From Pseudomonadales bacterium (GTDB lineage Bacteria; Pseudomonadota; Gammaproteobacteria; Pseudomonadales; UBA5518), in NCBI GenBank assembly GCA_022072145.1, contig JAJVIG010000005.1, positions 248,001 to 312,000 on the forward strand: 64,000 bases of DNA, written 5' to 3'. A program made the translations under genes and the position numbers. Each line of letters starts with the position of its first letter. Position 1 is the first letter of the stretch. The notes under the pieces were generated by a model. It made no database searches, had not been told where the DNA came from, and saw only the letters and a program-made list of their open reading frames with translations. This document shows positions 14,026 to 29,265 of this stretch, piece by piece.

Positions 14026-14910
14026 TCAGACGAGGTATACCGGATCGCCGACCTGCAGCACTGCCTCGCCCTCCACGGTGGCGTAGATCCCGAGGTGGCG
14101 TGCCAGCAACTCGACGATCGCACGTGTCATCGGCGGTTCGGCCGCCAGGCCCAGTTGCGGCTGCGCGCGCGAGGGAATGGCGCAGCGGATCGTGCGCCCG
14201 CGCGGCCTGACGGTCAGCGCACCGATGCGCAGTTCCCGCCCGACCAGCGCGAACTCCGGCACCGGCTGCGCGGGATCCACGAACTCCAGCACGAGGTTGG
14301 GCCGAAAGCGCTCGACGCGCGCATCGACGCCGCGGCTTGCGCCGAGGTGTGCCAGTGCCTGCGTGCTCAGCAGGTGCAGCGGGAAGATGTCGAAGAAGGT
14401 CCCCGGCGGCGTCATGTATTCGGCCATCACCAGCAGCATGTCCCCGGGGGTCTGCGAGAAGTCGAGCTCGCCCTCGTCGGGCAGGCGGTTCAGGTCGCGT
14501 TCGACCTCCGCGAGCTCGAGCTGGCGCCGATGGCGGTAGAACTCGCGCTCGCTGGCCGCGCGCAGCGGCTCTAGCGTGCATTGCCGTCCGAGCGCGGCAC
14601 CGAGCCCGGCGTCGCTCTCCGGCGTGCGTGACGCCAGTTCCGTGCCGTCGGGACAGCGCACCAGCACCTCCGGCACTGCGCTGCCGGTCACGCCCGGGGC
14701 GCACTCCCCGCCGCCGGCGAAACGCGCCGTGAACTCCAGCAGCCGCGGCCACTGGCGGGCGCTCCTGATCTCGCCCGCGGCATCGCACACCGCCCACACG
14801 CGGTCGCCGGCCAGGCCGCCTGGGCCCACGCGACAGCGTGGCAGGGCTTCGCCGCCCATGCTCTTGACGGGGTAGCGGCGGATCCCGACGACGTGGGCGA
14901 TCGCTTGCAT
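14026..14910 (-). CDS. MOSC domain-containing protein (YcbX-like)
   Basis: A 294-aa protein with the MOSC N-terminal beta-barrel (VVGIRRYPVKSMGGEAL, residues 7-23; GLAGDRVWAVCD, 33-44) followed by the MOSC domain, which binds sulfur-carrying molybdenum cofactor. A cysteine near residue 222 (TIRCAIPSR) is in the place of the family's catalytic Cys. YcbX-like proteins reduce N-hydroxylated bases. The window encodes a molybdopterin enzyme elsewhere, but there is no evidence for a direct link. The gene is monocistronic. Confidence 0.85.
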   Translation of the reverse strand: MQAIAHVVGIRRYPVKSMGGEALPRCRVGPGGLAGDRVWAVCDAAGEIRSARQWPRLLEFTARFAGGGECAPGVTGSAVPEVLVRCPDGTELASRTPESDAGLGAALGRQCTLEPLRAASEREFYRHRRQLELAEVERDLNRLPDEGELDFSQTPGDMLLVMAEYMTPPGTFFDIFPLHLLSTQALAHLGASRGVDARVERFRPNLVLEFVDPAQPVPEFALVGRELRIGALTVRPRGRTIRCAIPSRAQPQLGLAAEPPMTRAIVELLARHLGIYATVEGEAVLQVGDPVYLV

Positions 14911-15031
14911 GGGATTCCCTGGGTTCGGCTCGATTCGACAGCGGCAACATTATAGACGTTCGCCGGCCGCGGGCGTGTCGTACGTGGCGGGTTGGGTTAC
15001 GATGCAAGGTGCGGATCCGGAGCGCACCTCG

Positions 15032-16627
15032 ATGAGCGATTCGGGTGAGGCGGTTACAGGCACCGGTTTCCGGCCCTTTTTCTGGGTCGACGGGCAGCTG
15101 CGGGTGCGCGAATGGCCGGAGGTCACGGCGCGCGCGCTCGCGATCCCCGCCGCCGAGGCGATCGGGCGGCACTGCAGCGAGGTGCTGCGCGGCTGCTTCA
15201 CCGGACGCGAACCGCCGTGCGCGGCGTGCCGCAACGACGTTCCACGCAGATCCGCAACATCGTCCGCCAGACCCGACCGGGCCGCCGGCTGCGCGCGGCT
15301 GCCGGTGGCACAAGGCGACGAGCTGGCGCTGATGTGGGCGCCGTTGTCACGGCTGGTATCCGGCGATGCCGGGCACGCGAACACCGAACGGCTGCTGGTG
15401 CGCGGTGCGCTGGCGGCGCACCTGGGTTCGATCGAGGAAACCCTGGAGTGGCTGCGTCGCGCCTGCGCGGCGGACGACTGCGAATTGTTCCTGCTCGACG
15501 CCAGCGGTCGCGAGGTGTTCCTGGTCGATTGCGAAGGACTCGACCGCGACGCATTCATGCAGATCACACGCATGCCGCTGGGTACGGGCTATCCCGGCCT
15601 GGTCACGCAGGCGCAGCGTCCGTTGTTCACCAACCATCTGCAGCAGGACGGACTGCTGCAGCGCGCGGATGTGCAGCGCTGCGGCATCCGCTCGCTGATC
15701 GGCGTGCCGCTGGCCAGCGGCGGACGGGCGCTCGGCTATCTGGGGCTGGGCTGGCGCGACGAGCGGGTGCCGATGGACTGGGCACTGCGCTTGCTGCAGG
15801 ACCTGAAGGCGCTGATCCCGCTGGCGATTCCGCGGCCGAGTGCAGGCTCGCCCGCGCTCGACGCGCCGCAGCAGGGACTCGCGGTCCGCTGCCTCGGCGC
15901 CTGGCAGGTGCGCATCGACGGTATGGCGGTGCCGTACTCGGCGTTCGGGCGGCGCAAGGCGGTGGAACTGCTGCAGCACCTGGTGCTGGCGCGTGGACGC
16001 CCGCTCGCGCGCGAAAGGCTGGTGGATCTGTTGTGGCCGGACGCCGGGCCCGACGCCGGCAACGGCCGGCTGCACGTGGTGGTCAACGCGCTGCGCACGG
16101 CGCTCGCCGCCGGCGGCCCGGCCGGGGCGGCGGGCTACGTAGTGTGGCGTGGTGACGGTTATGCGCTGGACCTTGCGCGCGCGCACGCCGTGGACCTTTA
16201 CGAGTTCCTCGATCGGGTCGCCGCGGCGCGGCGCGCGCTGCGCGCCGGCAACGAGGTGCAGGCGCTGGCGTGGCAGGAGTCGGCGCAGGAGTGTTACGGC
16301 GGTACGCTGTTCGCCGACCAGGTGCTGGGCGACGAACTCGAGGGCGAGCGCGCGCGTCTCGCGCGGTCCTTCATCGAACTGAGCTACGAAATCGTCGGCA
16401 CCCGGCTGCGCTGGGGGCAACTGGACGGCGCGTTGCGTGCTGCCCGGCACGCGCTCGACATCGAGCCGCTGGCGCCGGATCTGCACGAGCTGCTGATTTC
16501 GCTGCTGCAGGCCGGTGGTCGCACGGCCGAGGCGCGGCGCGCGACGAAGGCCTGCCGCGCGCTGCTGGGGTACGCACCGGAAGTGGAATCCTCGCGCATC
16601 GGGCGGGTGCTGCGACCGCTGCGCTGA
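15032..16627 (+). CDS. transcriptional regulator with GAF and BTAD domains
   Basis: About 531 aa. The N-terminal 100 residues look PAS-like and hold a cysteine cluster (CFTGREPPCAACR) that could be redox- or metal-responsive. Residues about 130-265 form a GAF-like sensor (IRSLIGVPLASGGRALGYLGLG). The C-terminal half is an OmpR/SARP-type winged helix (GRRKAVELLQHLVLARGRPL) plus a bacterial transcriptional activator domain with TPR-like helices. The start at 15032 has GGAG 12 nt upstream; ATG 15002 is possible. No target is evident, but the neighbour on the other strand is the heme-copper cluster. Confidence 0.8.
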   Translation: MSDSGEAVTGTGFRPFFWVDGQLRVREWPEVTARALAIPAAEAIGRHCSEVLRGCFTGREPPCAACRNDVPRRSATSSARPDRAAGCARLPVAQGDELALMWAPLSRLVSGDAGHANTERLLVRGALAAHLGSIEETLEWLRRACAADDCELFLLDASGREVFLVDCEGLDRDAFMQITRMPLGTGYPGLVTQAQRPLFTNHLQQDGLLQRADVQRCGIRSLIGVPLASGGRALGYLGLGWRDERVPMDWALRLLQDLKALIPLAIPRPSAGSPALDAPQQGLAVRCLGAWQVRIDGMAVPYSAFGRRKAVELLQHLVLARGRPLARERLVDLLWPDAGPDAGNGRLHVVVNALRTALAAGGPAGAAGYVVWRGDGYALDLARAHAVDLYEFLDRVAAARRALRAGNEVQALAWQESAQECYGGTLFADQVLGDELEGERARLARSFIELSYEIVGTRLRWGQLDGALRAARHALDIEPLAPDLHELLISLLQAGGRTAEARRATKACRALLGYAPEVESSRIGRVLRPLR

Positions 16628-16637
16628 GCGTGGCGGC

Positions 16638-17393
16638 TCAGCGTGGTGGTCCGCTGCGCACGAACAGCAATGCCAGCGCGCCGAGCGAGCCGAGCGCGGG
16701 TGCCGCGAGCAGCAGCAGTCCCCAGTCCGGCAGGATCAGCCCGGTGCGCGCATCGAAGCGGAAGCAGCCGAGCGCCATGCGTCCGGGCCGTGGCAGCACC
16801 GGAATGAACTCCCCGCGCAGTTCGCGCACCAGCGCGTGCAGACGGCGCAGGTCGCTGCGCCCGGCGGCCATCGTCATGCGGTCGATCAATTGCCCCTGGC
16901 GCACCGCGGCTAGCAGTGCGGCGTGATCGAACTGACCCGGTTGCGCGGCTGGGCGCGCCTCGAATCCCAGCGCGCCGGTGATGAGGCGAAGCTGCGCGGG
17001 CGTGGTGGTCGCGAACGACCAGCCGGCGGTGTCTGCCAGGCCCAGAGCGGCGGCCTGCGAGCGCAGATCCTGGAGCGTGTCGGCCTCGTCGAAGCTCAGC
17101 GCCAGTATGTGGTAGTCGCTGCCAGCGCCGCCGACGCGGGCGGTCGCATCGTGCAGCAGCGAGAGAAACGGTGTGCAGACCCCGGTGCAGCGGCGATAGA
17201 AGAACGTCAGCAACAGCGGCTGCTGCCCGGCCAGTTCGCTCAGCAACGCATTGCTGCCGTCCCCGAGCTCGAGGCGGATGTCCGGCAGGGCCTGCCCGCC
17301 ACCGATGCCGAAGCCGGTATCCGCGTGTCCCGGGGCGTCCGGCGCGAGTGTCAGCAGCAGCGTGAGCAGCAGGCCCGGCCAGGCGGTGCGCAT
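16638..17393 (-). CDS. SCO1/SenC family copper chaperone
   Basis: A 251-aa thioredoxin-fold protein that delivers copper to CuA/CuB sites. The copper ligands are Cys69 and Cys73 (CTGVC) and His157 (QFDHAALL). An N-terminal signal sequence (WPGLLLTLLLTLAPDAPGHA) leads to the periplasm, and a second hydrophobic segment at about 222-246 gives an unusual C-terminal membrane anchor. It is the last gene of the CuA subunit-heme/copper subunit-SCO cluster and starts 10 bp after subunit I. That order matches the norSY-senC clusters described in nitrifiers. Confidence 0.9.
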   Translation of the reverse strand: MRTAWPGLLLTLLLTLAPDAPGHADTGFGIGGGQALPDIRLELGDGSNALLSELAGQQPLLLTFFYRRCTGVCTPFLSLLHDATARVGGAGSDYHILALSFDEADTLQDLRSQAAALGLADTAGWSFATTTPAQLRLITGALGFEARPAAQPGQFDHAALLAAVRQGQLIDRMTMAAGRSDLRRLHALVRELRGEFIPVLPRPGRMALGCFRFDARTGLILPDWGLLLLAAPALGSLGALALLFVRSGPPR

Positions 17394-17403
17394 CGGCGTG
17401 CGC

Positions 17404-18825
17404 TCAGTCGGTGCGCGTGGCGGTGCGCCACTGCCGCACGGTATCCAGCGCGTAGTAGAGGAATCCGGCCAGGAACAGCGTCGCGAACGCCGCCGCGATG
17501 CCCGCGGTGGTCGCACCGTGGGCCAGTTCGGCCGGGTAGGCGGCGAAGCGGCGCGGGATCGACCATGCACCCGCGAGGTAGAACATCGCGAAGAAGCCGT
17601 AGGCGCCGCCGACGAGCAGCAGGGCGATCGTGCGGTCGCGCCGCGGCGAGGCGTCGGCGGTGGCGGCAGGACGCGCCAGGTGCGCGAAGTAGCCGGCGAT
17701 CAGGAACACGAGCCCGGCCAGCATGTAGGTGTGGAAGTGCGCCGGCACCCACAGCGTGTTGTGCAGGCGCGTGTTCGCGCTGATCGTCGAGTCGATCACG
17801 GCGCCGATGCCGCCGATCGCCCAGCCCGCCAGCCCGGCGAACAGCAGTATCGAGGCGAGATTCCAGCGCATCGTCGCGCGGTAGACCAGCAGCAGGGCGC
17901 CGAAAATGGTCACGATCGCCGCCGGGAGAGCGCTGGCGTAGGAGGCGACCTGCCCCAGGTACTGCAGTCCGCCGGGCTGGGCGAAATCCATGTACAGGTG
18001 GTGCAGGTACGCGAGCAGCACGATGGCGAGCACCGTGTTCCACGAGACCACGACCACCGGGTTGGTTTTCCACGGGCGTCCCGCGTAGTCCGGCAGGATC
18101 TCGTAGGCCAGCGCGACGCCCAGGTACATCGACAGGTTCACCAGCGTGTGGCCGAAGAAGAAGGTCAGGTTCTTCATCAGCAGCGCGTCGCTGGAGGTGC
18201 CCGTCAGCAACTCCAGCGCGAACAGCACGATCACGATCACGGCCGAGACCAGCGCGGCGATGCCGGCGATCAGGCTCACCGTGACGATCAGTAGCGAGGG
18301 CGGCAGCACCGGTTCGGTCTGTCCGCGCAGATAATGCCACCCGAGCGCCTGCGCCAGCGTGAAGCGGGCGGCGATCGCCCGCAGCAGGTCGAGCGACCAC
18401 ACCAGCCAGGTCGCGCCCAGCACGGTCAGCGAGGCGAGGAACAGCACCGCGGACCACAACGGCCACTCACCGTGCAGCGGCAGCGGGTAGAGGAAGTACC
18501 AGCCCGCCGCGAAGCGCCCGAGCAGCACGCAGGCGAGCAGCATCAGCACCCCGATCACGGTTCCCGCCAGTGCGATGCGTCCGATCAGCGGCGACGGTGC
18601 GACGTGGCGCGCGAGCACGCTGGCCGCGCAGCCCATCGCCGCCACGTACCACACGCCGACCATGCCCACGCCGTGCAGCGTCATCAAGGGATAGAACCAG
18701 CCGGCCATCGCCTCGAGACCACCGGCCTGCACCGTCCGCATGGTGATGCCGAGCAGGGCGAGCACCGGGAACAGGATGAAGGTGACTGCCATCCACAGTG
18801 CGGTCTGGGTGTCGATCGTGCGCAT
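17404..18825 (-). CDS. heme-copper oxidase superfamily subunit I, probable sNOR-type NO reductase
   Basis: A 473-aa, about 12-helix membrane protein. All six metal-ligand histidines are visible: His51 (TLHGVGM), His226 (FFFGHTLVN), His275-His276 (YLHHLYMD), and His363 and His365 (WVPAHFHTYM). In oxygen reductases of the A and B types the helix VI histidine is followed four residues later by the cross-linked active-site tyrosine; here that position is Asn230. Loss of this tyrosine is a known mark of NO-reducing branches of the superfamily. With the upstream cytochrome c-CuA subunit, the downstream SCO gene and neighbouring nsrR/norB, an NO reductase (NorS-like) is more likely than an oxygen reductase. 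Confidence 0.8.
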   Translation of the reverse strand: MRTIDTQTALWMAVTFILFPVLALLGITMRTVQAGGLEAMAGWFYPLMTLHGVGMVGVWYVAAMGCAASVLARHVAPSPLIGRIALAGTVIGVLMLLACVLLGRFAAGWYFLYPLPLHGEWPLWSAVLFLASLTVLGATWLVWSLDLLRAIAARFTLAQALGWHYLRGQTEPVLPPSLLIVTVSLIAGIAALVSAVIVIVLFALELLTGTSSDALLMKNLTFFFGHTLVNLSMYLGVALAYEILPDYAGRPWKTNPVVVVSWNTVLAIVLLAYLHHLYMDFAQPGGLQYLGQVASYASALPAAIVTIFGALLLVYRATMRWNLASILLFAGLAGWAIGGIGAVIDSTISANTRLHNTLWVPAHFHTYMLAGLVFLIAGYFAHLARPAATADASPRRDRTIALLLVGGAYGFFAMFYLAGAWSIPRRFAAYPAELAHGATTAGIAAAFATLFLAGFLYYALDTVRQWRTATRTD

Positions 18826-18844
18826 TGGCGTCTCCTCGTGAAAG

Positions 18845-19810
18845 TCATTCGACCGTGATGCCGGCGCGCATCAGGTGGTGCCCGGCGGCGCAGTACTCGA
18901 GGCACAGCACCGGGTAATGGCCGGGCTCCCGGAAGTGCACCCGCACGCGGTTCACGTAGCCGGGCATCGCCTGCGTCTGGGCCAGCAATTGGCGGTCGAC
19001 GCCGTAGACCCCGAAGCCGTGGTTGACGTCCAGTGCCGTGACGCGGAACTCGACCAGCGTGTCGGCCGCGACGGTGATGCGGTCACTGGTGGCCACGTTG
19101 AGCAGGTCCCCGGTGCTGTCGACCGCCACGTCCGAGAACAGGAACTCGAACTGGCGTGCCGTCACGTGGATCACGCGATCCGGGGTCGTGGCGGCCTGCA
19201 CGTACGGGGTGCGCGGCAGGGTGAGCGCGAGCACGGTGATCGCGCACACCAGCCCCGCCATGAACAGCACACGGCGCAGCGCATAGGCCCGGTGCGTGTC
19301 CACCGTGGCCGGATCGCGCGTGCTGCGCGCGACCCAGACGAACACGGTGACGATCAGCAGCGTCGCGGCGATGAATCCGTACAGGATCGCCGACTGGGGA
19401 CTGCGCAGGGCGGGTGCCGGCATCGGCGCCGTCGCCACGCCGACCGCAACGCTCGCGGGATGCTGCCTGCTGACCTCATCGATGTGCGCGAGCAGCGCCG
19501 AGGCCTGCGTGTCGTCCAGCGCGAGGTTCGGCATCACGATGCGGTTGTATCTTTCGTACAGCCGGACGGCCACCGGATCGCCGGCCGCGATCATCGCCTG
19601 CGGATCCGTCACGAAGCGCATCAGCCAGGCGCGCTCGCGGCGCGCGCCGACGTCGTGCAGGTCGGGACCGATCCGGTCGCCTTCGCCGATGGTGTGGCAT
19701 GCGGCGCATTTCTGCTGGAACAGCACCTGCCCGGATGCTGTGTCGGCGGTCGCCGCACCGTGCGTGACGGCGGCGAGCAGCAGGGCGATCCGGGCTGCAG
19801 CATTGCGCAT
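18845..19810 (-). CDS. cytochrome c / CuA subunit II fusion of the sNOR-like complex
   Basis: A 321-aa periplasm-facing electron-entry subunit. After a signal peptide (1-22) comes a class I cytochrome c with CAACH at 35-39 and a probable axial Met93 (MPNLALDD). Then two transmembrane helices follow (about 139-162 and 180-198) and a cupredoxin domain with a complete CuA site: His264, Cys303, Glu305, Cys307, His311 and Met314. Placing the cytochrome before the CuA domain reverses the caa3 order. The ATG at 19810 follows GGGAG; an in-frame upstream ATG at 19834 is rejected. It is the first gene of a leftward operon, divergent from nsrR. Confidence 0.88.
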   Translation of the reverse strand: MRNAAARIALLLAAVTHGAATADTASGQVLFQQKCAACHTIGEGDRIGPDLHDVGARRERAWLMRFVTDPQAMIAAGDPVAVRLYERYNRIVMPNLALDDTQASALLAHIDEVSRQHPASVAVGVATAPMPAPALRSPQSAILYGFIAATLLIVTVFVWVARSTRDPATVDTHRAYALRRVLFMAGLVCAITVLALTLPRTPYVQAATTPDRVIHVTARQFEFLFSDVAVDSTGDLLNVATSDRITVAADTLVEFRVTALDVNHGFGVYGVDRQLLAQTQAMPGYVNRVRVHFREPGHYPVLCLEYCAAGHHLMRAGITVE

Positions 19811-19856
19811 GGACGTTCTCCCGCGGCAGGTCATTGCACACGGTGAATAGCGCCGG

Positions 19857-19876
19857 GCGCTTACAAAGCGCTTACA
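19857..19876. promoter_or_regulatory. direct repeat in the divergent sNOR-nsrR promoter region
   Basis: GCGCTTACA occurs twice with an 11-bp period (19857-19865 and 19868-19876), so both copies face the same side of the helix. It lies about 50 bp from the start of the cytochrome c/CuA gene and about 100 bp from nsrR. A regulator site is likely, but it does not look like the NsrR boxes found before norB. Confidence 0.35.
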
Positions 19877-19974
19877 GGGTCCGCGCCAGCCTTACGCACC
19901 GGCGCTCACTGCGGTACAGTTGCCACCGCCGCCGGTGCTCCGCCGGCGCCGGAGGATGCATCGACGGACCCGCC

Positions 19975-20448
19975 ATGCACATCACCCAGTTCACCGACTA
20001 CGCATTGCGCGCGCTGATCTACCTGGGCACCAACGACCAGCGCCGCGTCACGATCCAGGAGATCGCCGAGCGCTTCGACGTATCGCGCAACCACCTGATG
20101 AAGGTGGTCAACGAGCTGATCCGCAACGGCTACGCCGAGGGCGTGCGCGGCAAGGGCGGCGGGCTGCGGCTGGCGCGGCCGGCCGGCGAGATCGTCGTCG
20201 GCGAGGTGGTACGGCGCATGGAGCCGGGAATGGAACTGGTGGAGTGTTTCGGCTCCGGCTGCAAGTGCATCCTCGATCCCGAGTGCCAGCTGAAGTTCGC
20301 GCTCTCGCGCGCGCTCAGCGCCTTTCTGGCAGTGCTCGACGAGCTCACCCTGGCCGATATGCTCGGCGAACAGGAGGAGGCCGTGCTGCGGCTGGCTCCC
20401 GTGCCGGTGCGCCGCAAGACCAAACGCCTCGCCGCCGCCGGCGGCTGA
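19975..20448 (+). CDS. nsrR: Rrf2 family NO-sensing repressor NsrR
   Basis: A 157-aa Rrf2-family winged-helix regulator that begins MHITQFTDYALRALIYL, as NsrR does. The recognition helix region is IAERFDVSRNHLMKVVNEL. Cys91, Cys96 and Cys104 (with an additional Cys98) fit the Fe-S ligand pattern CxxxxxC...C, and LKFALSRAL follows as in NsrR. In NsrR the cluster reacts with NO and the protein leaves its operators. The ATG at 19975 is the conserved start. Its likely targets are the two matching operators 0.4 kb downstream and perhaps its own divergent promoter. Confidence 0.9.
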   Translation: MHITQFTDYALRALIYLGTNDQRRVTIQEIAERFDVSRNHLMKVVNELIRNGYAEGVRGKGGGLRLARPAGEIVVGEVVRRMEPGMELVECFGSGCKCILDPECQLKFALSRALSAFLAVLDELTLADMLGEQEEAVLRLAPVPVRRKTKRLAAAGG

Positions 20449-20524
20449 TCCTTCTCGTCCCAGTCGCCCGCATTCCCGTCCGGTCCGCGCCCGACCTGAT
20501 CCTGGACATCGCGGCCGTGCCGCC

Positions 20525-20629
20525 CCGCGACGGCGGCTTCACCCCGGGGGGACGCCGTGAATACGTCCATGCAGGCTCGAATGCCGCATCCCTGCGGCGT
20601 ACGCCCCCCGGCGCGAAACCGCCCCCGCG
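20525..20629. repeat. diverged copy of the long inverted-repeat element
   Basis: This is related in reverse orientation to the 110-bp element at 63107-63216. The inner about 50 bp are nearly identical (shared GACGCCGTGAATACGTCC and CCGCATCCCTGCGGCGTACG). The outer arms pair with each other but have a different sequence (CCGGGGGG-type). It lies in the 479-bp gap between nsrR and norB. The rest of the gap holds REPs and the norB control region, and I see no gene there. Confidence 0.65.
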
Positions 20630-20679
20630 TGCGGATCGGTTCTGTGGCTGCCCGAACGGGGTTCGCGCGCATGTCCGCG

Positions 20680-20761
20680 CAGGTTCGGCCTGTGGCCGAA
20701 CATGTCCAGGCACAGCCCGGACCTGCACGAACGGTGCCGTAGGTTCGGCCTGCGGCCGAAC
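20680..20761. repeat. REP cluster: three hairpins between nsrR and norB
   Basis: Hairpins at 20680-20701 (variant A, loop TGT, first base C instead of T), 20704-20725 (variant B, reverse, one stem mismatch) and 20740-20761 (variant A, loop TGC). They lie about 60 bp upstream of the norB operators and may insulate norB from nsrR read-through. Confidence 0.8.
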
Positions 20762-20823
20762 GAACGTCCGGTCGTGCGCACTGCTCGCGGGCGCGCGGAA
20801 CGGCAATGGCAAATCCGCCCATA

Positions 20824-20846
20824 AAGATGCATTTGTATTGCAGCTT
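20824..20846. promoter_or_regulatory. NsrR operator 1 of norB
   Basis: A 23-bp imperfect dyad with half-site AAGATGCATTT, a central G, then TATTGCAGCTT. The left half equals the known NsrR consensus half-site exactly, and 8 of 11 positions are symmetric. The right half contains the candidate -35 element TTGCAG (20838-20843), so bound NsrR would block RNA polymerase. Confidence 0.8.
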
Positions 20847-20866
20847 TCAGAAGGTGCACGTAGAAT
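20838..20866 (+). promoter_or_regulatory. norB promoter embedded in the NsrR boxes
   Basis: TTGCAG (-35, 20838-20843), 17-bp spacer and TAGAAT (-10, 20861-20866). Transcription would begin near 20873, about 55 nt before the norB ATG. Both hexamers overlap NsrR-like sites. Confidence 0.6.
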
Positions 20867-20873
20867 GCATCTT
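20851..20873. promoter_or_regulatory. NsrR operator 2 of norB
   Basis: A second 23-bp dyad: AAGGTGCACGT, a central A, then GAATGCATCTT. The right half read on the other strand is AAGATGCATTC. Its centre is 27 bp from the centre of operator 1, and it covers the -10 hexamer TAGAAT. Confidence 0.75.
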
Positions 20874-20927
20874 CAAGCGGTCCATTGGTGGCCGTGAGCT
20901 CCCAGTGAATCTCTCGAGGAAACCGTG

Positions 20928-23207
20928 ATGATTGCCTCCCGGAAGTTATGGAACTGGTTGGCGCTCGTCTGCGTGCTGTCGTTCGCGGCACTCGGATGGG
21001 TGGGCACCGAGATCTACCTGCATGCGCCGCCGATCCCCGAGCGGGTGCAGAGCGACCGCGGGGACGTGCTGTTCGACGCCGGCGAGATCCAGCGCGGGCA
21101 GGAAGCCTGGCTCGCCGCCGGTGGCCAGCAGATGGGTTCGGTGTGGGGGCACGGTTCGTACCTCGCGCCGGACTGGTCGGCGGACTGGCTGCATCGGGAG
21201 GCGCTCGCGTTGCGCGAGATCTGGGCCGCGCGCGAGCAAGGGGCCTCCTACGCGGAACTCGACCCCGACACCCGGGCCGCGCTCGATGCGCGGCTCGAAC
21301 GCACGATGCGCGCCAACGGCCACGACCCCGAGCGCAACACGCTGGTGCTCGATGACGACCGCGCCGCGGCCGTGCGCGAGGTCGCCGCGCACTATGCCGG
21401 CCTGTTCGGTTCCGACCCGGCGCTCGACACGCTGCGCGAGCAGTACGCGCTGATGCCCGACAGCCTGCGCGATCCGCTCGATCGCCGTGCGCTGACCGCG
21501 TTCTTCTTCTGGAGCGCGTGGTCGGCGGCCGCCGATCGTCCCGGCGAGAGCGGGTTGTCGTACACCAGCAACTGGCCGCACGAACCGCTGGTCGGCAACA
21601 CCCCGACCGCATCGCTGGGCATCTGGTCGATCGCCAGCGTGATCCTGATGCTCGGTGCGATCGCCGGCATGATCCTGTTCCACGCGCGTCACGCCGATAC
21701 CGACCCGACACCGCCGAAGGCCGATCCGCTGATCGATCTGAAACCGACGCCGTCGATGCTCGCCACGCGCAAGTATTTCTTCGTGGTGATCGGCCTGATC
21801 CTCGCGCAGGTCGGCATGGGAGTGATCACCGCGCACTATGCGGTCGAAGGGCACAGCTTCTTCGGCATCCCGCTGGCGGACGTACTGCCGTTCACCGTGA
21901 GCCGCACCATCCACACCCAGTTCGCAGTGCTGTGGATCGCCACCGCGTGGCTGGCGACAGGGCTCTACATCGCACCGGCGATCTCGGGCCACGAGCCGAA
22001 GTACCAGAAACCCGGCGTGAACCTACTGTTCTACGCGCTGCTGTTCATCGTCGTCGGCTCCACCGTCACGGGCTGGATCGGTAGCCTGCAGAACCCGGGA
22101 AGTGATTTTTCGTTCTGGATCGGCAACCAGGGCCTCGAGTTCACCAGCATGGGCCGTGTCTGGCAGGTGCTGCTTTTCATCGGGCTGCTGCTGTGGGTGA
22201 CGCTGCTCGGGCGCGGGCTGTGGCCGGCGCTGCGCACGCCATCGGAAAGCCGCGGGCTGATCGCGATGGTGTTCCTGTCGGCGCTGTGCATCGGCGGCTT
22301 CTACGCGACCTCGCTCGCCTGGGGGCAGAAGACGCACTACGCGATGATCGAGTACTGGCGCTGGTGGCTGGTGCACCTGTGGGTGGAAGGCTTCTTCGAG
22401 GTCTTCGCGACCGCGGTGATCGCGCTGCTGTTCGCGCGCCTCGGCCTGATCCGGGCCACCACCGCCAACAGCGCGATCATCCTCGAGACCATCGTGTTCC
22501 TGTTCGGCGGCATCCTCGGCACGCTGCACCACCTGTACTTCACCGGCACCCCGGTGTCGGTGATCGCCATCGGCGCGATGTTCTCGGCGCTGGAAGTGGT
22601 GCCGCTGGCGATGATCGGCGTCGAGGCGTGGCGCAACTACCGCCTCTCGCGTGCCGCGCCGTGGGTGCAACGCTACCGCTGGGCGATCCTGTCGTTCATC
22701 GCGGTCGGCTTCTGGAACGTGGTCGGTGCCGGCCTGCTCGGCTTCTCGATCAACACCCCGATCGCGCTCTACTACATGCAGGGCATGAACATGACGGCCG
22801 CGCACGGCCACGCCGCGCTGTTCGGTGTCTACGGCATGCTCGGCATCGGGTTGATGCTGTTCTGCCTGCGCGGTCTGATGGGCAACGCCGCGTGGTCTGA
22901 CCGTCTGCTCGGCTGGACCTTCTGGTCGCTCAACATCGGGCTGGCGATGATGGTGTTCATGTCGCTGGTGCCCGCCGGCATCGCGCAGGCGTGGGCGAGC
23001 ATCACGCACGGCGTGTGGTTCGCGCGCTCGCCGGAGTTCGTGCACGGCACGATGATGGAAACCTTCGTCTGGCTGCGCGTGCCCGGCGACATCGTGTTCG
23101 CGTTCGGCACGTTGTTCCTGGCGTGGTTCGCACTGCGGCTGCTGGGCGGGCGCCGGACGGCGCACGCCGCGGGTGCGGGCGACGCGAGCCCCGCGATGGC
23201 GCATTGA
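20928..23207 (+). CDS. norB: quinol-dependent nitric oxide reductase (qNOR, NorZ/NorB)
   Basis: A 759-aa single-subunit qNOR that reduces two NO to N2O with quinol electrons at the inner membrane. The long N-terminal periplasmic domain (about 30-215; GQQMGSVWGHGSYLAPDWSA) is characteristic of the quinol type. Ligands are visible in SRTIHTQFAVLW, HLWVEGFFEVFA (the FeB glutamate region), GTLHHLYF and AAHGHAALFGVYG. GTG 20925 and ATG 20928 are adjacent; the ATG is 7 nt after GAGGA and is chosen. Two NsrR-like operators control it. It is followed by a clear intrinsic terminator, so it is monocistronic. Confidence 0.95.
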   Translation: MIASRKLWNWLALVCVLSFAALGWVGTEIYLHAPPIPERVQSDRGDVLFDAGEIQRGQEAWLAAGGQQMGSVWGHGSYLAPDWSADWLHREALALREIWAAREQGASYAELDPDTRAALDARLERTMRANGHDPERNTLVLDDDRAAAVREVAAHYAGLFGSDPALDTLREQYALMPDSLRDPLDRRALTAFFFWSAWSAAADRPGESGLSYTSNWPHEPLVGNTPTASLGIWSIASVILMLGAIAGMILFHARHADTDPTPPKADPLIDLKPTPSMLATRKYFFVVIGLILAQVGMGVITAHYAVEGHSFFGIPLADVLPFTVSRTIHTQFAVLWIATAWLATGLYIAPAISGHEPKYQKPGVNLLFYALLFIVVGSTVTGWIGSLQNPGSDFSFWIGNQGLEFTSMGRVWQVLLFIGLLLWVTLLGRGLWPALRTPSESRGLIAMVFLSALCIGGFYATSLAWGQKTHYAMIEYWRWWLVHLWVEGFFEVFATAVIALLFARLGLIRATTANSAIILETIVFLFGGILGTLHHLYFTGTPVSVIAIGAMFSALEVVPLAMIGVEAWRNYRLSRAAPWVQRYRWAILSFIAVGFWNVVGAGLLGFSINTPIALYYMQGMNMTAAHGHAALFGVYGMLGIGLMLFCLRGLMGNAAWSDRLLGWTFWSLNIGLAMMVFMSLVPAGIAQAWASITHGVWFARSPEFVHGTMMETFVWLRVPGDIVFAFGTLFLAWFALRLLGGRRTAHAAGAGDASPAMAH

Positions 23208-23240
23208 ACGCACGGTCTCCGACCCGAGACTTGCTCCTGT

Positions 23241-23268
23241 GGCCCGGCCCTGCGCCGGGCCTTTTTTT
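23241..23268 (+). terminator. intrinsic terminator of norB
   Basis: Stem GGCCCGGC / GCCGGGCC with loop CCTGC, followed directly by seven T residues. It lies 33 bp after the norB stop codon and is the most canonical Rho-independent terminator in the window. Confidence 0.9.
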
Positions 23269-23269
23269 G

Positions 23270-23351
23270 TTGGTCCGGGCTGTGCCCGGACATGTTCGTG
23301 TAGGTCCGGGCTGTGCCCGGACAGGGATTGTTCGGCCAGAGGCCGAACCTG
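23270..23351. repeat. REP cluster: three hairpins after norB
   Basis: Variant B forward at 23270-23291 (TTGG at the foot) and 23301-23322 (GTAG intact), then variant A reverse at 23330-23351 with loop AGA. The cluster lies between convergent norB and the Rossmann oxidoreductase gene but does not touch either stop codon. Confidence 0.8.
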
Positions 23352-24515: not shown

Positions 24516-24599
24516 CCATCCGCGTCGGATTGCGCTCCCTAGAATCGGATGCAGGTCAGCGGCTGCGTGCCGTCATCGTCCGGTTCACGGAGGCAGACA

Positions 24600-25244
24600 A
24601 TGAAAACATTTTCCACCGATCACCCGCTCGCCAGCCTGCTCGATCCCGCGGGCTCGCCGTGGAGCGCGGTCGCGGCCACGGTCGTCGCGCTCGACGGCAC
24701 CCCGCTCGCGATGCAACCCACCGCCGCGGTGCGCAACAGCTGGCGCGACCGCCCGATCGGCGCGGTGCGTTCGGTCGAGGTGCGCGCGCTGCAGAGCGCC
24801 GACGCGCTGGCCTTCCACCTGCGCTGGGCCGACGACGCGGCCAACCGCGACCACGGCGACAACACCGTGTTTCCCGATGCCGCCGCGATCGCACTGCCGC
24901 TGCACGCCGATGCGCCGCTGATCACGATGGGTGCGCCAGGAGCGCCGCTGACCGCGTGGTTCTGGCGCGCCGACAGCGGCAACCAGGGCTTCGAGGTGCG
25001 CGCCGAGGGACCGGGCAGCACGCGCATCACCGGTCGCACCGTGCAGGCCAACGCACTCTGGAGCGACGGCGTGTGGCAGCTCGTGCTCGCACGCTCGCTC
25101 GCCGGGGAAGGCACCGCCGACAGCATCGCGCTGGCGAGCGGGCAGGCGAGCCGCTTCGGCGTCGCGGTCTGGGAAGGCGCGCACGGCGAACGCGGCGGGC
25201 TGAAGGCCTTCTCGGGCGACTGGCGCGAACTGCTGCTCGCGTAG
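24600..25244 (+). CDS. heme b (gamma) subunit of ethylbenzene dehydrogenase-type enzyme
   Basis: A 214-aa protein resembling the gamma subunits EbdC/DdhC/SerC of type II DMSO-reductase-family dehydrogenases, which bind heme b between a Met and a Lys and pass electrons out. Supporting blocks are the beta-rich ALAFHLRWAD, DNTVFPDAAAIALP and ALWSDGVWQLVLARSL. There is no signal peptide, so export in complex with the Tat-bearing alpha subunit is likely. The ATG follows GGAGG. It is the first gene of a four-gene operon; the beta subunit gene follows after 55 bp. Confidence 0.85.
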   Translation: MKTFSTDHPLASLLDPAGSPWSAVAATVVALDGTPLAMQPTAAVRNSWRDRPIGAVRSVEVRALQSADALAFHLRWADDAANRDHGDNTVFPDAAAIALPLHADAPLITMGAPGAPLTAWFWRADSGNQGFEVRAEGPGSTRITGRTVQANALWSDGVWQLVLARSLAGEGTADSIALASGQASRFGVAVWEGAHGERGGLKAFSGDWRELLLA

Positions 25245-25299
25245 CGGGTGGGCCGGTCGCGACAGCGGTACGTTCAGGACAGGAGAGGGGAGAGACGCA

Positions 25300-26328
25300 A
25301 TGCCCGGGATCAAGCGCCAGATGGCCATGGTCATGGACCTCAACAAGTGCATCGGATGCCAGACCTGCACCGTGGCGTGCAAGACCTTGTGGACCGCGAG
25401 CGAAGGCATGGAGCACATGTTCTTCAACACCGTGAACACGATGCCCGGCGAAGGAACGCCGCGTGGCTGGGAGGCGATGGGCGGGGGGTTTCCCGGCGGC
25501 GAGGCGCAGCTCGGCAAGCTGCCGGCGATCGGTGAGTTCGGCGACGCGTGGAAGTACAACCACGAGGAAGTGTTCTACGGCGGCAAGGGCCAGGACGTGC
25601 ACCTCGGCGTGCAGGGCGAGGCGCCGACATGGGGGCCGAACTGGGACGAGGACCAGGGCGGCGGCGAGTTTCCCAACAGTTTCTTCTTCTACCTGCCGCG
25701 GCTGTGCAACCACTGCACGCACCCGGCGTGCAAGGAAGCGTGTCCGCGCGGCGCGATCGAGAAGCGCGAGGCCGACGGCGTGGTGGTGGTGAACGAGGAC
25801 CGCTGCCGCGGCTACCGCCACTGCATGGAAGCCTGCCCGTACAAGAAGATCTACTTCAACCACGTGAGCCAGGTGTCGCAGAAGTGCATCTTCTGCTTCC
25901 CGCGGCTCGAGCAGGGCGTGGCGCCGGCCTGCGCGCGCCAGTGCCCGGGGCGGGTGCGCTTCGTCGGCTACCGCGACGACCAGGACGCGCCGATCTGGAA
26001 GCTGGTCGACAAGTGGAAGGTCGCGCTGCCGCTGCATCCGGAGTTCGGTACCGAGCCGAACGTGTTCTACGTGCCGCCCAGCGCGCCGGCGCGCTTCGAC
26101 GCCGACGGACGCATGGACGAGTCGAAGCCGCGCATCCCCGACGAGTACCTGGTATCGCTGTTCGGCGAGCGCGTGCTCGAGGCGCTGCAGACGCTCGCCG
26201 GGGAGCGCGCGAAGGCAGCCCGCGGCGAGCGCTCGGAGCTGATGGACCTGCTGATCGCCTACCGCTGGCAGGACATGTTCGGTGGTTTCGATCGCGATCC
26301 GCAGACCATCAAGTGGGTCGAGGCCTGA
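25300..26328 (+). CDS. iron-sulfur (beta) subunit of ethylbenzene/steroid C25 dehydrogenase-type enzyme
   Basis: A 342-aa ferredoxin-like subunit (NarH/EbdB family). Four Cys groups are visible: C17-C20-C23-C27 with C215, C136-C139-C144-C148, C169-(Tyr172)-C175-C179, and C196-C199-C211. Tyr172 stands where the second Cys of the third group would be, matching the [3Fe-4S] site of this family, so three [4Fe-4S] and one [3Fe-4S] clusters are expected. It carries electrons from the molybdenum subunit to heme b. GAGAGGGGAGAG precedes the ATG. The alpha gene follows 48 bp later. Confidence 0.93.
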   Translation: MPGIKRQMAMVMDLNKCIGCQTCTVACKTLWTASEGMEHMFFNTVNTMPGEGTPRGWEAMGGGFPGGEAQLGKLPAIGEFGDAWKYNHEEVFYGGKGQDVHLGVQGEAPTWGPNWDEDQGGGEFPNSFFFYLPRLCNHCTHPACKEACPRGAIEKREADGVVVVNEDRCRGYRHCMEACPYKKIYFNHVSQVSQKCIFCFPRLEQGVAPACARQCPGRVRFVGYRDDQDAPIWKLVDKWKVALPLHPEFGTEPNVFYVPPSAPARFDADGRMDESKPRIPDEYLVSLFGERVLEALQTLAGERAKAARGERSELMDLLIAYRWQDMFGGFDRDPQTIKWVEA

Positions 26329-26376
26329 GGGTTCTGCACGGGGTCCGCAACGGTCGGTCGGGAGGAGAGTCGCACC

Positions 26377-29265
26377 ATGCCCATCTCACGTCGGAGTTTC
26401 ATCATCGGTTCCGCCGCGGTTGCCGCGGCCGGTGGTCTGGTCCTGTACAACCTGCGCCCGCGCACGCCGGTGAAGCCGGTGTTCCAGCCGGCGCCGTCGG
26501 TGGTGGCGCAGCGCGTGCGCTACAACGATTTCTCCGATATCTGGCGCGAGAAATGGACCTGGGACAAGGTCGTCAAGGGAACCCACACGCGCGCCAACTG
26601 CATCTCGGCGTGCTCGTGGGACGTGTACGTGAAGGACGGCATCGCGTGGCGCGAGGAGCAGGCCGCGATCTACGCGCCGCACCGGCCCGACGTGCCGGAC
26701 TTCAACCCGCGCGGCTGCCAGAAGGGCGCCTGCTACACGCAGCTGCAGCTGGCCGAGTCGCGCGTCACGCATCCGCTCAAACGCGTGGGCGAGCGCGGCG
26801 AGGGCAAATGGAAGCGCGTGTCGTGGGACGAGGCGCTGACCGACATCGCCGACCGCATCATCGACGCGGCGATCGAGCAGGGCACCGAGTCGGTGGTCTT
26901 CGACGACGGCACGACCAACGCCGGCTACGGTCCCGAATCGGCCGGTGACATGCGCTTCGCGCAGGCGCTGCAGACCACGCGCATCGACTCCTGGGCCGGC
27001 GTCAGCGACATGCCGATGGGCGCGGTGCAGACCTGGGGGCTGTACAACAGCGAGGGCACCGCCGACGACTGGTTCCTCTCGGACTACATCGTGGTGTGGG
27101 TCGGCAACCCTTCGTACACGCGCATCCCCGACATGCATTTCATGCATGAGGCGCGCTACCGCGGCGCGAAGCTGGTGGTGATCGCGCCCGACTACAGCCC
27201 GAGCGCGATCCACTCCGACCTGTGGCTGAACGTGAAGCCCGAGACCGACGCCGCGCTCGGGCTCGCGTGCGCGCAGGTCATGATCGAGGAGAAGCTGTTC
27301 AAGCCCGGGTACGTGCTCGAGCAGACCGACCTGCCGTTCCTCGTGCGCACCGACAACCAGCACTTCCTGCGCCAGTCCGACGTCGAGCGCGGCGGCGCGG
27401 ACAATGCACTGTACCTGTGGGACGAGGCGCGCAACGCGATCGTCGTGGCGCCCGGTTGCGAGGGCGACGGCGACGAGGGCCGCAGCCTTGCGCTCGGCGA
27501 CATCCGCCCCGCGTTGTCGGGTCGATTCGAGGTGAAGCTCGCCGATGGCTCGAGCGTCGAGGTCGAGACGGTGTTCGACAGGCTGCGCGCGCAGCTCGAC
27601 GCCGCGTATCGCCCCGAGCAGGCCGCCGCGATCACCGGTCTGCACCCCGACACCATCCGCACCTTCGCGCGCCAGATGGCGGCGGCGCGGCGCTCGATGA
27701 TCTTTGCCTCGTGGGGTGCCTGCAAGCACTACCACAGCGATCTCTTCCAGCGCGCGATGATGCTGCTGATGGCGCTGACCGGCAACCAGGGCTACCAGGG
27801 CGGCGGCGTGCGCATCGCGGCCTGGTGGGGCATGGACGGACTGGACGCCATCGCCTCGCAGTCCGCGCTGACGATGATGGAAAAGCTGCAGATCATCCCG
27901 AAGGCGATCCGCGGGCTGACGCCGCGCGACTACGAGAAGGTGTTCATGGGCATGAGCGAGCGCGAGTCGATCGTGCCGCTGATGGTGTTCCTGTACGTGC
28001 ACGCCGGCTACCGCGAGATGTGGGACGAGCAGCACCTGCAGGACCCGGCGCTGCCGCGGCACCTGCGCGAGTACGTGCGCGAGTCGCTGGACCGCGGCTG
28101 GATGAAGGTCTATCCGCCCGAGGACCGCTCGCCGAAGGTCTACATCTTCACCGGCTGCAACCCGTTGCGCCGCTGGCCGGCCGCGCAGATCGCGCGCGAG
28201 AAGCTGTGGCCGAAGCTCGACCTCGTGGTGTCGGTGAACTTCCGCATGTCGACCTCGACGATGTACGCGGACTATGTGCTGCCGGTGGCGGGCTACTACG
28301 AGAAGTACGGCATCAAGTACGGCCAGACCTACGTGCCGTACATCATCTGCTCCGACAAGGCGACCGAGCCGCCGGGCGAGGCGAAGTCCGACTGGGAGAC
28401 CTTCGGCCTGCTCAGCAAGTACGTCGCCGAGCGCGCGAAGGCGCGTGGTGTCTCCGAGGTGCGCGGCTTCCACGACGAGCCGCTCGACCTGCGCACCGTC
28501 TACGACCGCCACACGCAGAACGGCAAGTCCGATCCCACCGATCCCGAGGATCCCGTCAAGCTGATGGACGCGATCTTCGCCAACAGCCCCAGCGTGGGAG
28601 CGAACAGCGGCCGCGAGGCACTCGACATGGGCGCGGTGCCGGTGATCGGCACCGGCCGGCCGTCGCTGATCTACCAGAACTACAGCGAGTACGACAACGA
28701 CGACACGCACTGGCCGCACCGTGACTTCGTCGAGAAGAAGGTCGCGTGGCCCACGCTGACCGGCCGCCAGCAGTTCTACCTCGATCATCCGTGGTATCTG
28801 GAGGGCGGCGAATCGCTGCCGGTGCACAAGGATCCGCCGCTGGCTAGCAGCGAGTTCCCGCTGCGCGTCTACGGCGGCCACAACCGCTGGAGCATCCACG
28901 CGATCTGGCGCGACCTGAAGCTGATGCTGCAACTCGAGCGCGGGCAGCCCGTGTGCTTCATGAACCCGCGCGACTGCGCGCCGCGCGGCATCGCCGACGG
29001 CGACATGGTGCGCGTGCACAACAACCGCGGCGAGTTCGAGTGCATGGTCAAGGTGGCCGCGGCGACCGCGCCCGGCGAGGTGATCGTCTACCACGCGTGG
29101 GAGCCGTACCAGTTCAAGCAGTGGAAGGGGCCCACCGAGCCGATCGAGGCGCCGTGGAAGGCGCTGCATCTGGCCGGCGGCTACAGCCAGCTGCACTACC
29201 GCATGTTCTACGGCGCCCCCAGCCACGTGCCGCGCGGCGCCGCGGTGGAGGTCAGCAAGGCATGA
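26377..29265 (+). CDS. molybdopterin (alpha) subunit, type II DMSO reductase family hydroxylase
   Basis: A 962-aa catalytic subunit with a Tat signal (SRRSFI at 4-9, then a hydrophobic stretch). The FS0 cluster ligands are His70, Cys75, Cys79 and Cys114, the His-type motif of NarG/EbdA. Asp211 in SDMPMG is the probable molybdenum ligand. It most resembles ethylbenzene dehydrogenase and steroid C25 dehydrogenase alpha subunits, which hydroxylate hydrocarbon C-H bonds with water in the periplasm. Substrate cannot be fixed from sequence. It is preceded by GGAGGAG, and the stop overlaps the chaperone start (ATGA). Confidence 0.92.
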   Translation: MPISRRSFIIGSAAVAAAGGLVLYNLRPRTPVKPVFQPAPSVVAQRVRYNDFSDIWREKWTWDKVVKGTHTRANCISACSWDVYVKDGIAWREEQAAIYAPHRPDVPDFNPRGCQKGACYTQLQLAESRVTHPLKRVGERGEGKWKRVSWDEALTDIADRIIDAAIEQGTESVVFDDGTTNAGYGPESAGDMRFAQALQTTRIDSWAGVSDMPMGAVQTWGLYNSEGTADDWFLSDYIVVWVGNPSYTRIPDMHFMHEARYRGAKLVVIAPDYSPSAIHSDLWLNVKPETDAALGLACAQVMIEEKLFKPGYVLEQTDLPFLVRTDNQHFLRQSDVERGGADNALYLWDEARNAIVVAPGCEGDGDEGRSLALGDIRPALSGRFEVKLADGSSVEVETVFDRLRAQLDAAYRPEQAAAITGLHPDTIRTFARQMAAARRSMIFASWGACKHYHSDLFQRAMMLLMALTGNQGYQGGGVRIAAWWGMDGLDAIASQSALTMMEKLQIIPKAIRGLTPRDYEKVFMGMSERESIVPLMVFLYVHAGYREMWDEQHLQDPALPRHLREYVRESLDRGWMKVYPPEDRSPKVYIFTGCNPLRRWPAAQIAREKLWPKLDLVVSVNFRMSTSTMYADYVLPVAGYYEKYGIKYGQTYVPYIICSDKATEPPGEAKSDWETFGLLSKYVAERAKARGVSEVRGFHDEPLDLRTVYDRHTQNGKSDPTDPEDPVKLMDAIFANSPSVGANSGREALDMGAVPVIGTGRPSLIYQNYSEYDNDDTHWPHRDFVEKKVAWPTLTGRQQFYLDHPWYLEGGESLPVHKDPPLASSEFPLRVYGGHNRWSIHAIWRDLKLMLQLERGQPVCFMNPRDCAPRGIADGDMVRVHNNRGEFECMVKVAAATAPGEVIVYHAWEPYQFKQWKGPTEPIEAPWKALHLAGGYSQLHYRMFYGAPSHVPRGAAVEVSKA

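Follow-up and report, generated by a model that had tools for sequence, protein, structure and literature searches.

Adjoining sNOR-type and quinol-dependent nitric oxide reductase genes, probably under separate control, in a gammaproteobacterial genome

We examined a 64-kb stretch of a 3.83-Mb draft genome of a Pseudomonadales bacterium (G000:C1:248001-312000, hereafter the window, in which positions are given) that carries genes for two different nitric oxide (NO) reductases. Open reading frame (ORF) and domain searches identified, at 16638-23207, genes for an SCO copper chaperone, a heme-copper subunit I (norY), a cytochrome c-CuA subunit (norS), an NsrR-type Rrf2 regulator and a single-chain quinol NO reductase (qNOR). 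The first three are located on the minus strand and are transcribed in the order norS, norY, SCO, while the NsrR-type gene is followed by qNOR on the plus strand. Another regulator gene, here called REG, is convergent to the SCO gene at a distance of 10 bp. The features are:

15032..16627, plus strand: REG, regulator with PAS-like, GAF and SARP-type (winged helix and BTAD) parts; 531 amino acids from M42 of the ORF 14909-16627
16638..17393, minus strand: SCO/SenC copper chaperone (CxxxC); PF02630 above cut-off; in the same place in nearly all relatives
17404..18825, minus strand: norY, sNOR-type heme-copper subunit I; PF00115, 152 bits
18845..19810, minus strand: norS, cytochrome c (CAACH), membrane anchor and CuA domain; PF00034 and PF00116 above cut-off
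19844..19849, minus strand: -10-like hexamer TATTCA of the norS promoter, 10 nt past the second TGTAAG; from an alignment of 13 norS promoters
19860..19876, minus strand: candidate SARP-type operator TGTAAG-N5-TGTAAG (11-bp direct repeat) upstream of norS
19975..20448, plus strand: NsrR-type Rrf2 regulator; three cluster cysteines and Asp8
20824..20846, plus strand: NsrR-like operator 1, AAGATGCATTTGTATTGCAGCTT; 17/20 consensus positions, top match in the 64 kb
20851..20873, plus strand: NsrR-like operator 2, AAGGTGCACGTAGAATGCATCTT; 16/20, second-best match in the 64 kb
20928..23207, plus strand: qNOR, single-chain quinol NO reductase; Glu, HH, quinol-site His and Asp
23241..23261, plus strand: terminator-like hairpin and T run 3' of qNOR

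The five genes at 16638-23207 are long and conserved, and are not chance ORFs. All five had been named in a first-pass annotation of the sequence and were recovered here by their ORFs, Pfam matches and motifs, but that annotation overlooked both REG (15032-16627) and the regulatory DNA, and these together change the interpretation. The norS ORF spans 18845-19834, with M9 at 19810 as the likelier start.

To place subunit I, 84,980 species genomes were scanned; this gave 438 relatives, and the analysis continued with the best 80, which represent many phyla. The window norY retains the six histidine ligands of the hemes and CuB (H51, H226, H275, H276, H363 and H365), which are conserved in all aligned norY sequences except one. 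The position of the cross-linked tyrosine of heme-copper oxidases is occupied by asparagine in 88 of the 89 aligned sequences (N230 in the window), and the alternative tyrosine position of cbb3-type enzymes by valine or isoleucine in nearly all of them. The K-channel Tyr244 equivalent is valine, leucine or isoleucine in every aligned sequence, and the Ser309 equivalent is alanine in the window. The exception at the asparagine position is an Acidobacteriota homolog with an adjoining CuA subunit (L092:6001-7419), which has also lost CuB ligands (H to Q, HH to NH). Published criteria assign asparagine and the lack of a channel to sNOR, glutamine to eNOR, aspartate to gNOR and tyrosine to oxygen reductases (PMC8756737). 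A cupredoxin CuA subunit II (PF00116) lies beside norY, and the gene order norS-norY-SCO matches that of sNOR, except that SCO is followed not by orf1 but by the convergent REG.

In a maximum likelihood tree, the asparagine family formed one group (approximate likelihood ratio test value 100), apart from the ba3 and eNOR-like sequences. It includes Ruegeria pomeroyi (L101), whose former genus Silicibacter is listed for sNOR (PMC8756737), and Candidatus Methylomirabilis (L063), for species of which an sNOR has been published (PMC6094997). The window norY is located inside an 81-sequence clade that is sister to the canonical sNORs. The tree was inferred with a quick method, few outgroups and no bNOR among the references, and the outgroup is thin since the phylum matches serving as B-type oxidase references were mostly eNOR-like and one ba3-like. 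The nearest solved structures, identified with a seven-sequence profile, are ba3 oxidases, and the channel residues of bNOR are not retained in norY. Judged from its residues and tree position, subunit I is an sNOR-family protein. The first-pass description of a cytochrome c-CuA-type enzyme of this kind beside a genuine qNOR and an NsrR-type gene thus agrees with the asparagine site, the CuA subunit and the gene order. Subunit I branches outside the oxygen-reducing ba3 oxidases that were sampled and lacks an alternative tyrosine at the active site; an oxygen-reductase identity, which we also considered, appears disfavoured by the asparagine and the lack of such a tyrosine. No norY relative was found on viral contigs, and just three, all canonical-like, were found on plasmids.

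The norS product contains a CxxCH motif and a complete CuA motif, CLEYCAAGHHLM; the pattern C-x-E-x-C-x3-H-x2-M is complete in the window and in 88 of the 89 loci with a match. Fusion of an N-terminal cytochrome c to CuA is limited to the subclade of the window (L016-L034, L036, L037, L040 and L054). The order norS-norY-SCO is kept in nearly all of the 80 relatives whose DNA extends far enough. Among five congeners, norY is present in one and qNOR in none, and the norY of that congener (G275, 68% identity) is placed with Lautropia in the tree, not with the window. The sporadic occurrence of norY, with four congeners lacking it, and the grouping with Lautropia indicate that the sNOR operon was probably transferred horizontally. 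Canonical and Acidobacteria clusters repeatedly have a formate/nitrite transporter gene behind norSY(-SCO) (L101, Ruegeria; L102, Thermomicrobium; L225 and L226); none was seen adjoining the sNOR operon of the window.

The REG protein matches the Pfam domains GAF, BTAD (PF03704, above cut-off) and Trans_reg_C (PF00486, just below cut-off). Orthologs with 43-51% identity are located convergent to SCO at 10 independent loci (L016-L019, L021, L022, L026, L037, L054 and L097, the last in a congener). None was found in the other 273 genomes of the class that were searched, and full-length REG was found in three only, all proteobacterial, of 19 norSY genomes searched. Seven cysteines are invariant in 11 orthologs (C48, C63, C66, C87, C150, C167 and C287 in the 531-residue numbering), the first four of which form a motif in the N-terminal PAS-like part. 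The AlphaFold model has a GAF domain at 132-271 and resembles AfsR and EmbR in their SARP domains (Z about 18). Matches of the GAF part in the PDB include NO- and heme-binding GAF domains, a fold that is too common to indicate function.

The TGTAAG-N5-TGTAAG repeat is found upstream of norS with zero to one mismatch in 12 loci and with two mismatches in L026; these are the REG-bearing loci plus L020 and L048. In most of the 13 norS promoters a TACA-like -10 box comes 10 nt after the repeat; the flanks are unconserved. An 11-bp repeat in the window is weak by itself, as 27 of 100 shuffles contained at least one site with at most two mismatches; the weight of the candidate operator comes from its being exact, unique in the genome (the single exact occurrence in 3.83 Mb is at 19860-19876) and in the same place in relatives. 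SARP operators are 11-bp direct repeats about 8 bp from the -10 box (PMC10936776), and REG likewise combines the OmpR-type winged helix and BTAD fold with 11-bp-spaced repeats in its presumed target promoter. No sigma-70 consensus promoters were found, as expected of SARP-type promoters. From the conserved linkage, the shared norS repeat, the SARP rule and the genome-unique operator, we infer that REG is a dedicated activator of norSY-SCO; its cysteines and its target suggest that it may sense NO.

For the Rrf2 regulator the top NCBIfam model is NsrR, with a score of 142.6 bits that is below the curated equivalog cut-off of 182, for which reason we call it NsrR-type. Its best match in the PDB is Streptomyces NsrR (5n07), and the alignment shows that the three cluster cysteines and Asp8 are kept. 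The qNOR (PF22085 and PF00115) is about 50% identical to solved qNORs and has their fused cytochrome c-like domain without heme, as well as every catalytic and quinol-site residue, namely the catalytic Glu, the FeB HH pair, and the quinol-site His and Asp. Scanning the 64 kb with a 23-bp NsrR consensus of 20 scored positions yielded the two ATGCAT-type inverted repeats 55-104 bp upstream of the qNOR start. The next-best site in the window scored 13, random 64-kb sequences never reached 15, and the norS-nsrR interval contained no NsrR-like site of at least 14/20. The half-site AAGATGCATTT occurs twice in its exact form in the genome. Allowing one mismatch genome-wide, it gave 15 matches compared with 10 for the reversed pattern, so that no NsrR regulon could be derived in this way.

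Two other genomes of the order (L106 and L108) have a qNOR gene close to an NsrR homolog, with NsrR-like sites in tandem upstream, indicating that NsrR-qNOR is a module of its own. Conversely, NsrR was not detected in the DNA around norSY in the best 80 of the 438 relatives, where the sole qNOR-like gene is of the NO dismutase (NOD) type (L044). The first-pass annotation had placed both operons under one NO sensor. This was not supported: NsrR-like operators are located upstream of qNOR only, the sNOR operon has a conserved SARP-type regulator and operator, and NsrR is undetected near norSY in these relatives. Common NsrR control was accordingly set aside, there being no NsrR operator at norS.

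Additional genes for NO metabolism are located elsewhere in the genome. On contig C13 (L099:12828-17369), a gene for a NirS-type cytochrome cd1 and one for an eNOR-like (Gln) subunit I are divergently oriented, the latter accompanied by a small CuA-like subunit, alongside genes for a heme farnesyltransferase-like protein, SCO and a cytochrome b/ferredoxin fusion; this is likely the main denitrification locus. Another COX1-like protein (L099:5668-7008), under the Pfam cut-off, has no HH pair and thus apparently lacks CuB ligands. A putative NOD is encoded on contig C6 (L098:7376-9724; G000:C6:27375-29720). This qNOR-like protein has HN in place of the FeB HH, Gln in place of the catalytic Glu and Gly in place of the quinol-site Asp, and is 61-64% identical to NODs in G120 and G578. 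The published marks of NOD are FeB His to Asn, catalytic Glu to Gln and loss of the quinol site (PMC3413370), from which the C6 protein departs in keeping the quinol-site His. Control of NOD, nirS or eNOR by REG was also considered and rejected, since the exact operator is at norS only.

By the Asn/Gln criterion, applied alike to both genome sets, a NOD is present in 20 of 78 norSY genomes (11/35 and 9/43) compared with 3 of 273 other genomes of the class (Fisher p ~1e-11, kinship and habitat ignored). For the norSY genomes named Pseudomonadota the count is 6 of 14 (p ~3e-7, likewise ignoring kinship and habitat). Since the comparison is uncorrected for phylogeny or habitat, shared high-nitrite habitats may explain part of the enrichment. 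Several Bacteroidetes and Acidobacteria genomes (L225-L229) carry NOD adjacent to norS-norY-SCO or elsewhere on the contig of these genes. It immediately precedes norS in L227, is about 5 kb distant in L225, with NapA and siroheme genes alongside, is similarly placed in L226, and shares a contig with norS in L228. The joint presence of NOD, sNOR and qNOR in Methylomirabilis is already recorded (PMC6094997); a broader NOD-sNOR association was unreported in the literature searched.

Taken together, the block probably consists of two adjoining NO-handling modules that are independently controlled. From the gene identities, active-site residues, family placement, REG linkage, and operator positions and uniqueness read from the DNA, we infer the substrate, sensing chemistry and direction of regulation as follows. 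The first module (15032-19876; REG, SCO, norY and norS) would encode a cytochrome c-dependent, CuA-containing sNOR with electrons passing from heme c via CuA and heme b to heme b3/CuB. Its active site, with asparagine for the catalytic tyrosine, would most likely convert 2 NO to N2O, and the asparagine argues against efficient O2 reduction. SCO, presumably an assembly factor, would load CuA. REG would sense NO or the redox state and would bind TGTAAG-N5-TGTAAG to activate norS, in the manner of Streptomyces SARPs. In the second module (19975-23261), NsrR bound to the two tandem operators would repress qNOR, the repression ending once NO has destroyed the Fe-S cluster of NsrR. NO made by NirS would most likely be consumed by the sNOR under REG control, using electrons from periplasmic cytochrome c, and rising NO would lead NsrR to derepress the quinol-fed qNOR, the two reductases tapping different electron pools.

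Several observations weigh against this scheme. The bNORs, which also combine asparagine with CuA, are missing from the norY tree. The structural model of REG has medium confidence (pLDDT 74), with the cysteine region predicted to be disordered, and the draft genome of L048 has an exact REG-type operator upstream of norS (L048:14-30) while no REG was found in it. The window shares with canonical sNOR loci (Ruegeria and L012-L014) an Rrf2/NsrR gene that is oriented divergently to norS, and L010-L014 carry weak NsrR-like sites (14-15/20) upstream of norS, so that NsrR could still act on norS via a site missed by the consensus. These loci also favour a single NO-defence island, in which the NsrR between the operons represses sNOR and qNOR alike. 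We hold this to be very doubtful, since no site of that strength separates norS from nsrR in the window, the SARP operator and regulator of the sNOR operon are conserved where NsrR is absent, and NsrR-qNOR pairs occur without norSY.

That norSY encodes a high-affinity oxygen reductase, which in NOD genomes could respire O2 made from NO, is unlikely in our assessment. This function was proposed for the Nitrosomonas europaea sNOR from transcript data (PMC6967387), and the enrichment of the family in NOD-bearing genomes, with NOD adjoining in L227, is in its favour. Against it are the near-universal replacement of the tyrosine without a substitute at the cbb3 position, the loss of the K-channel tyrosine, the separation from the ba3 oxidases, and the aa3 and cbb3 oxidases that the same genome already encodes. 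Also rather improbable is a role of the cytochrome c-CuA sNOR as a dedicated partner of NO dismutation; in bacteria that produce O2 from NO, it would be switched on by REG as a new class of thiol- or Fe-S-sensing SARP activator and would balance NO, or the O2 derived from it, against the periplasmic cytochrome c pool, leaving NsrR-qNOR as a separate emergency route. A more evenly balanced matter is whether a horizontally acquired sNOR cassette came to lie beside an NsrR-qNOR pair by chance, with no functional meaning. Both modules are sporadic in the genus, the congener norY groups apart from the window, and the adjacency was not seen in the 80 relatives. On the other hand, both modules handle the same substrate, so that clustering may be selected, and chance proximity fits the reading as two independently controlled modules, denying merely a benefit of adjacency.

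Among known systems, norSY-senC-orf1 of Nitrosomonas and Nitrosospira (PMC4940428) and the sNOR of R. pomeroyi share the CuA subunit II, the asparagine site, the adjoining SCO/SenC gene and the gene order. The window differs from this canonical group in the N-terminal cytochrome c of norS, in a subunit I of 37-41% identity, in lacking orf1 or a formate/nitrite transporter downstream, and in the SARP-type regulator with its own operator. The Ca. Methylomirabilis sNOR (Damo_0801-0802, PMC6094997) belongs to the same large clade (48% identity) and its genome also has qNOR and NOD, but no cytochrome c was detected in its CuA subunit and no full-length REG in that genome. NsrR-controlled norB/qNOR of beta-proteobacteria and Neisseria (PMC1274295) likewise has an NsrR-type regulator and ATGCAT-based operators upstream of a single-chain reductase, whereas the window has two tandem operators and the sNOR operon as neighbour. 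AfsR and EmbR share with REG the winged helix and BTAD fold and 11-bp direct-repeat operators near the -10 box; REG differs in being gammaproteobacterial, in its PAS-like and GAF sensor parts with invariant cysteines, and in having a respiratory enzyme rather than antibiotic biosynthesis as its target. The B-family-like two-subunit CuA make-up is shared with eNOR, bNOR and ba3 oxidases, but eNOR has Gln and ba3 Tyr at the site, and bNOR, reported only from Bacillota, keeps a proton channel. The pairing had been called unusual in the first-pass annotation. Co-occurrence of sNOR and qNOR in one genome is already known from Ca. Methylomirabilis (PMC6094997) and many Bacillota (PMC11388526), so that only the rarity of their physical adjacency stands. 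What appears to be new is the cytochrome c-CuA clade with a SARP regulator and operator of its own, together with the association with NOD.

Downstream of qNOR (24552-29265) are gamma, beta and alpha subunit genes of the type II dimethyl sulfoxide reductase family that are ethylbenzene dehydrogenase-like and score under the equivalog cut-offs. Clustered repetitive extragenic palindrome (REP)-like sequences, GTTCGGCC-N3-GGCCGAAC and GTCCGGGC-N3-GCCCGGAC, are present in 8 and 10 copies in the 64 kb, compared with about 0.1 expected. Clusters at 20683-20761 and 23273-23348 bracket qNOR, and others are located at 8.3, 45.4 and 49.9 kb.

It is disputed whether sNOR reduces NO or, with high affinity, O2 (PMC6967387). 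The locus described here offers a compact test system, with one operon, a candidate regulator, a genome-unique operator and the NsrR-controlled qNOR as an internal control. The NOD enrichment suggests that the natural setting of sNOR is in oxygenic denitrifiers of anammox sludge and groundwater, which bears on N2O emission. A cysteine-rich PAS-GAF SARP activator governing proteobacterial respiration would extend a class of regulators known mainly from Streptomyces antibiotic clusters.

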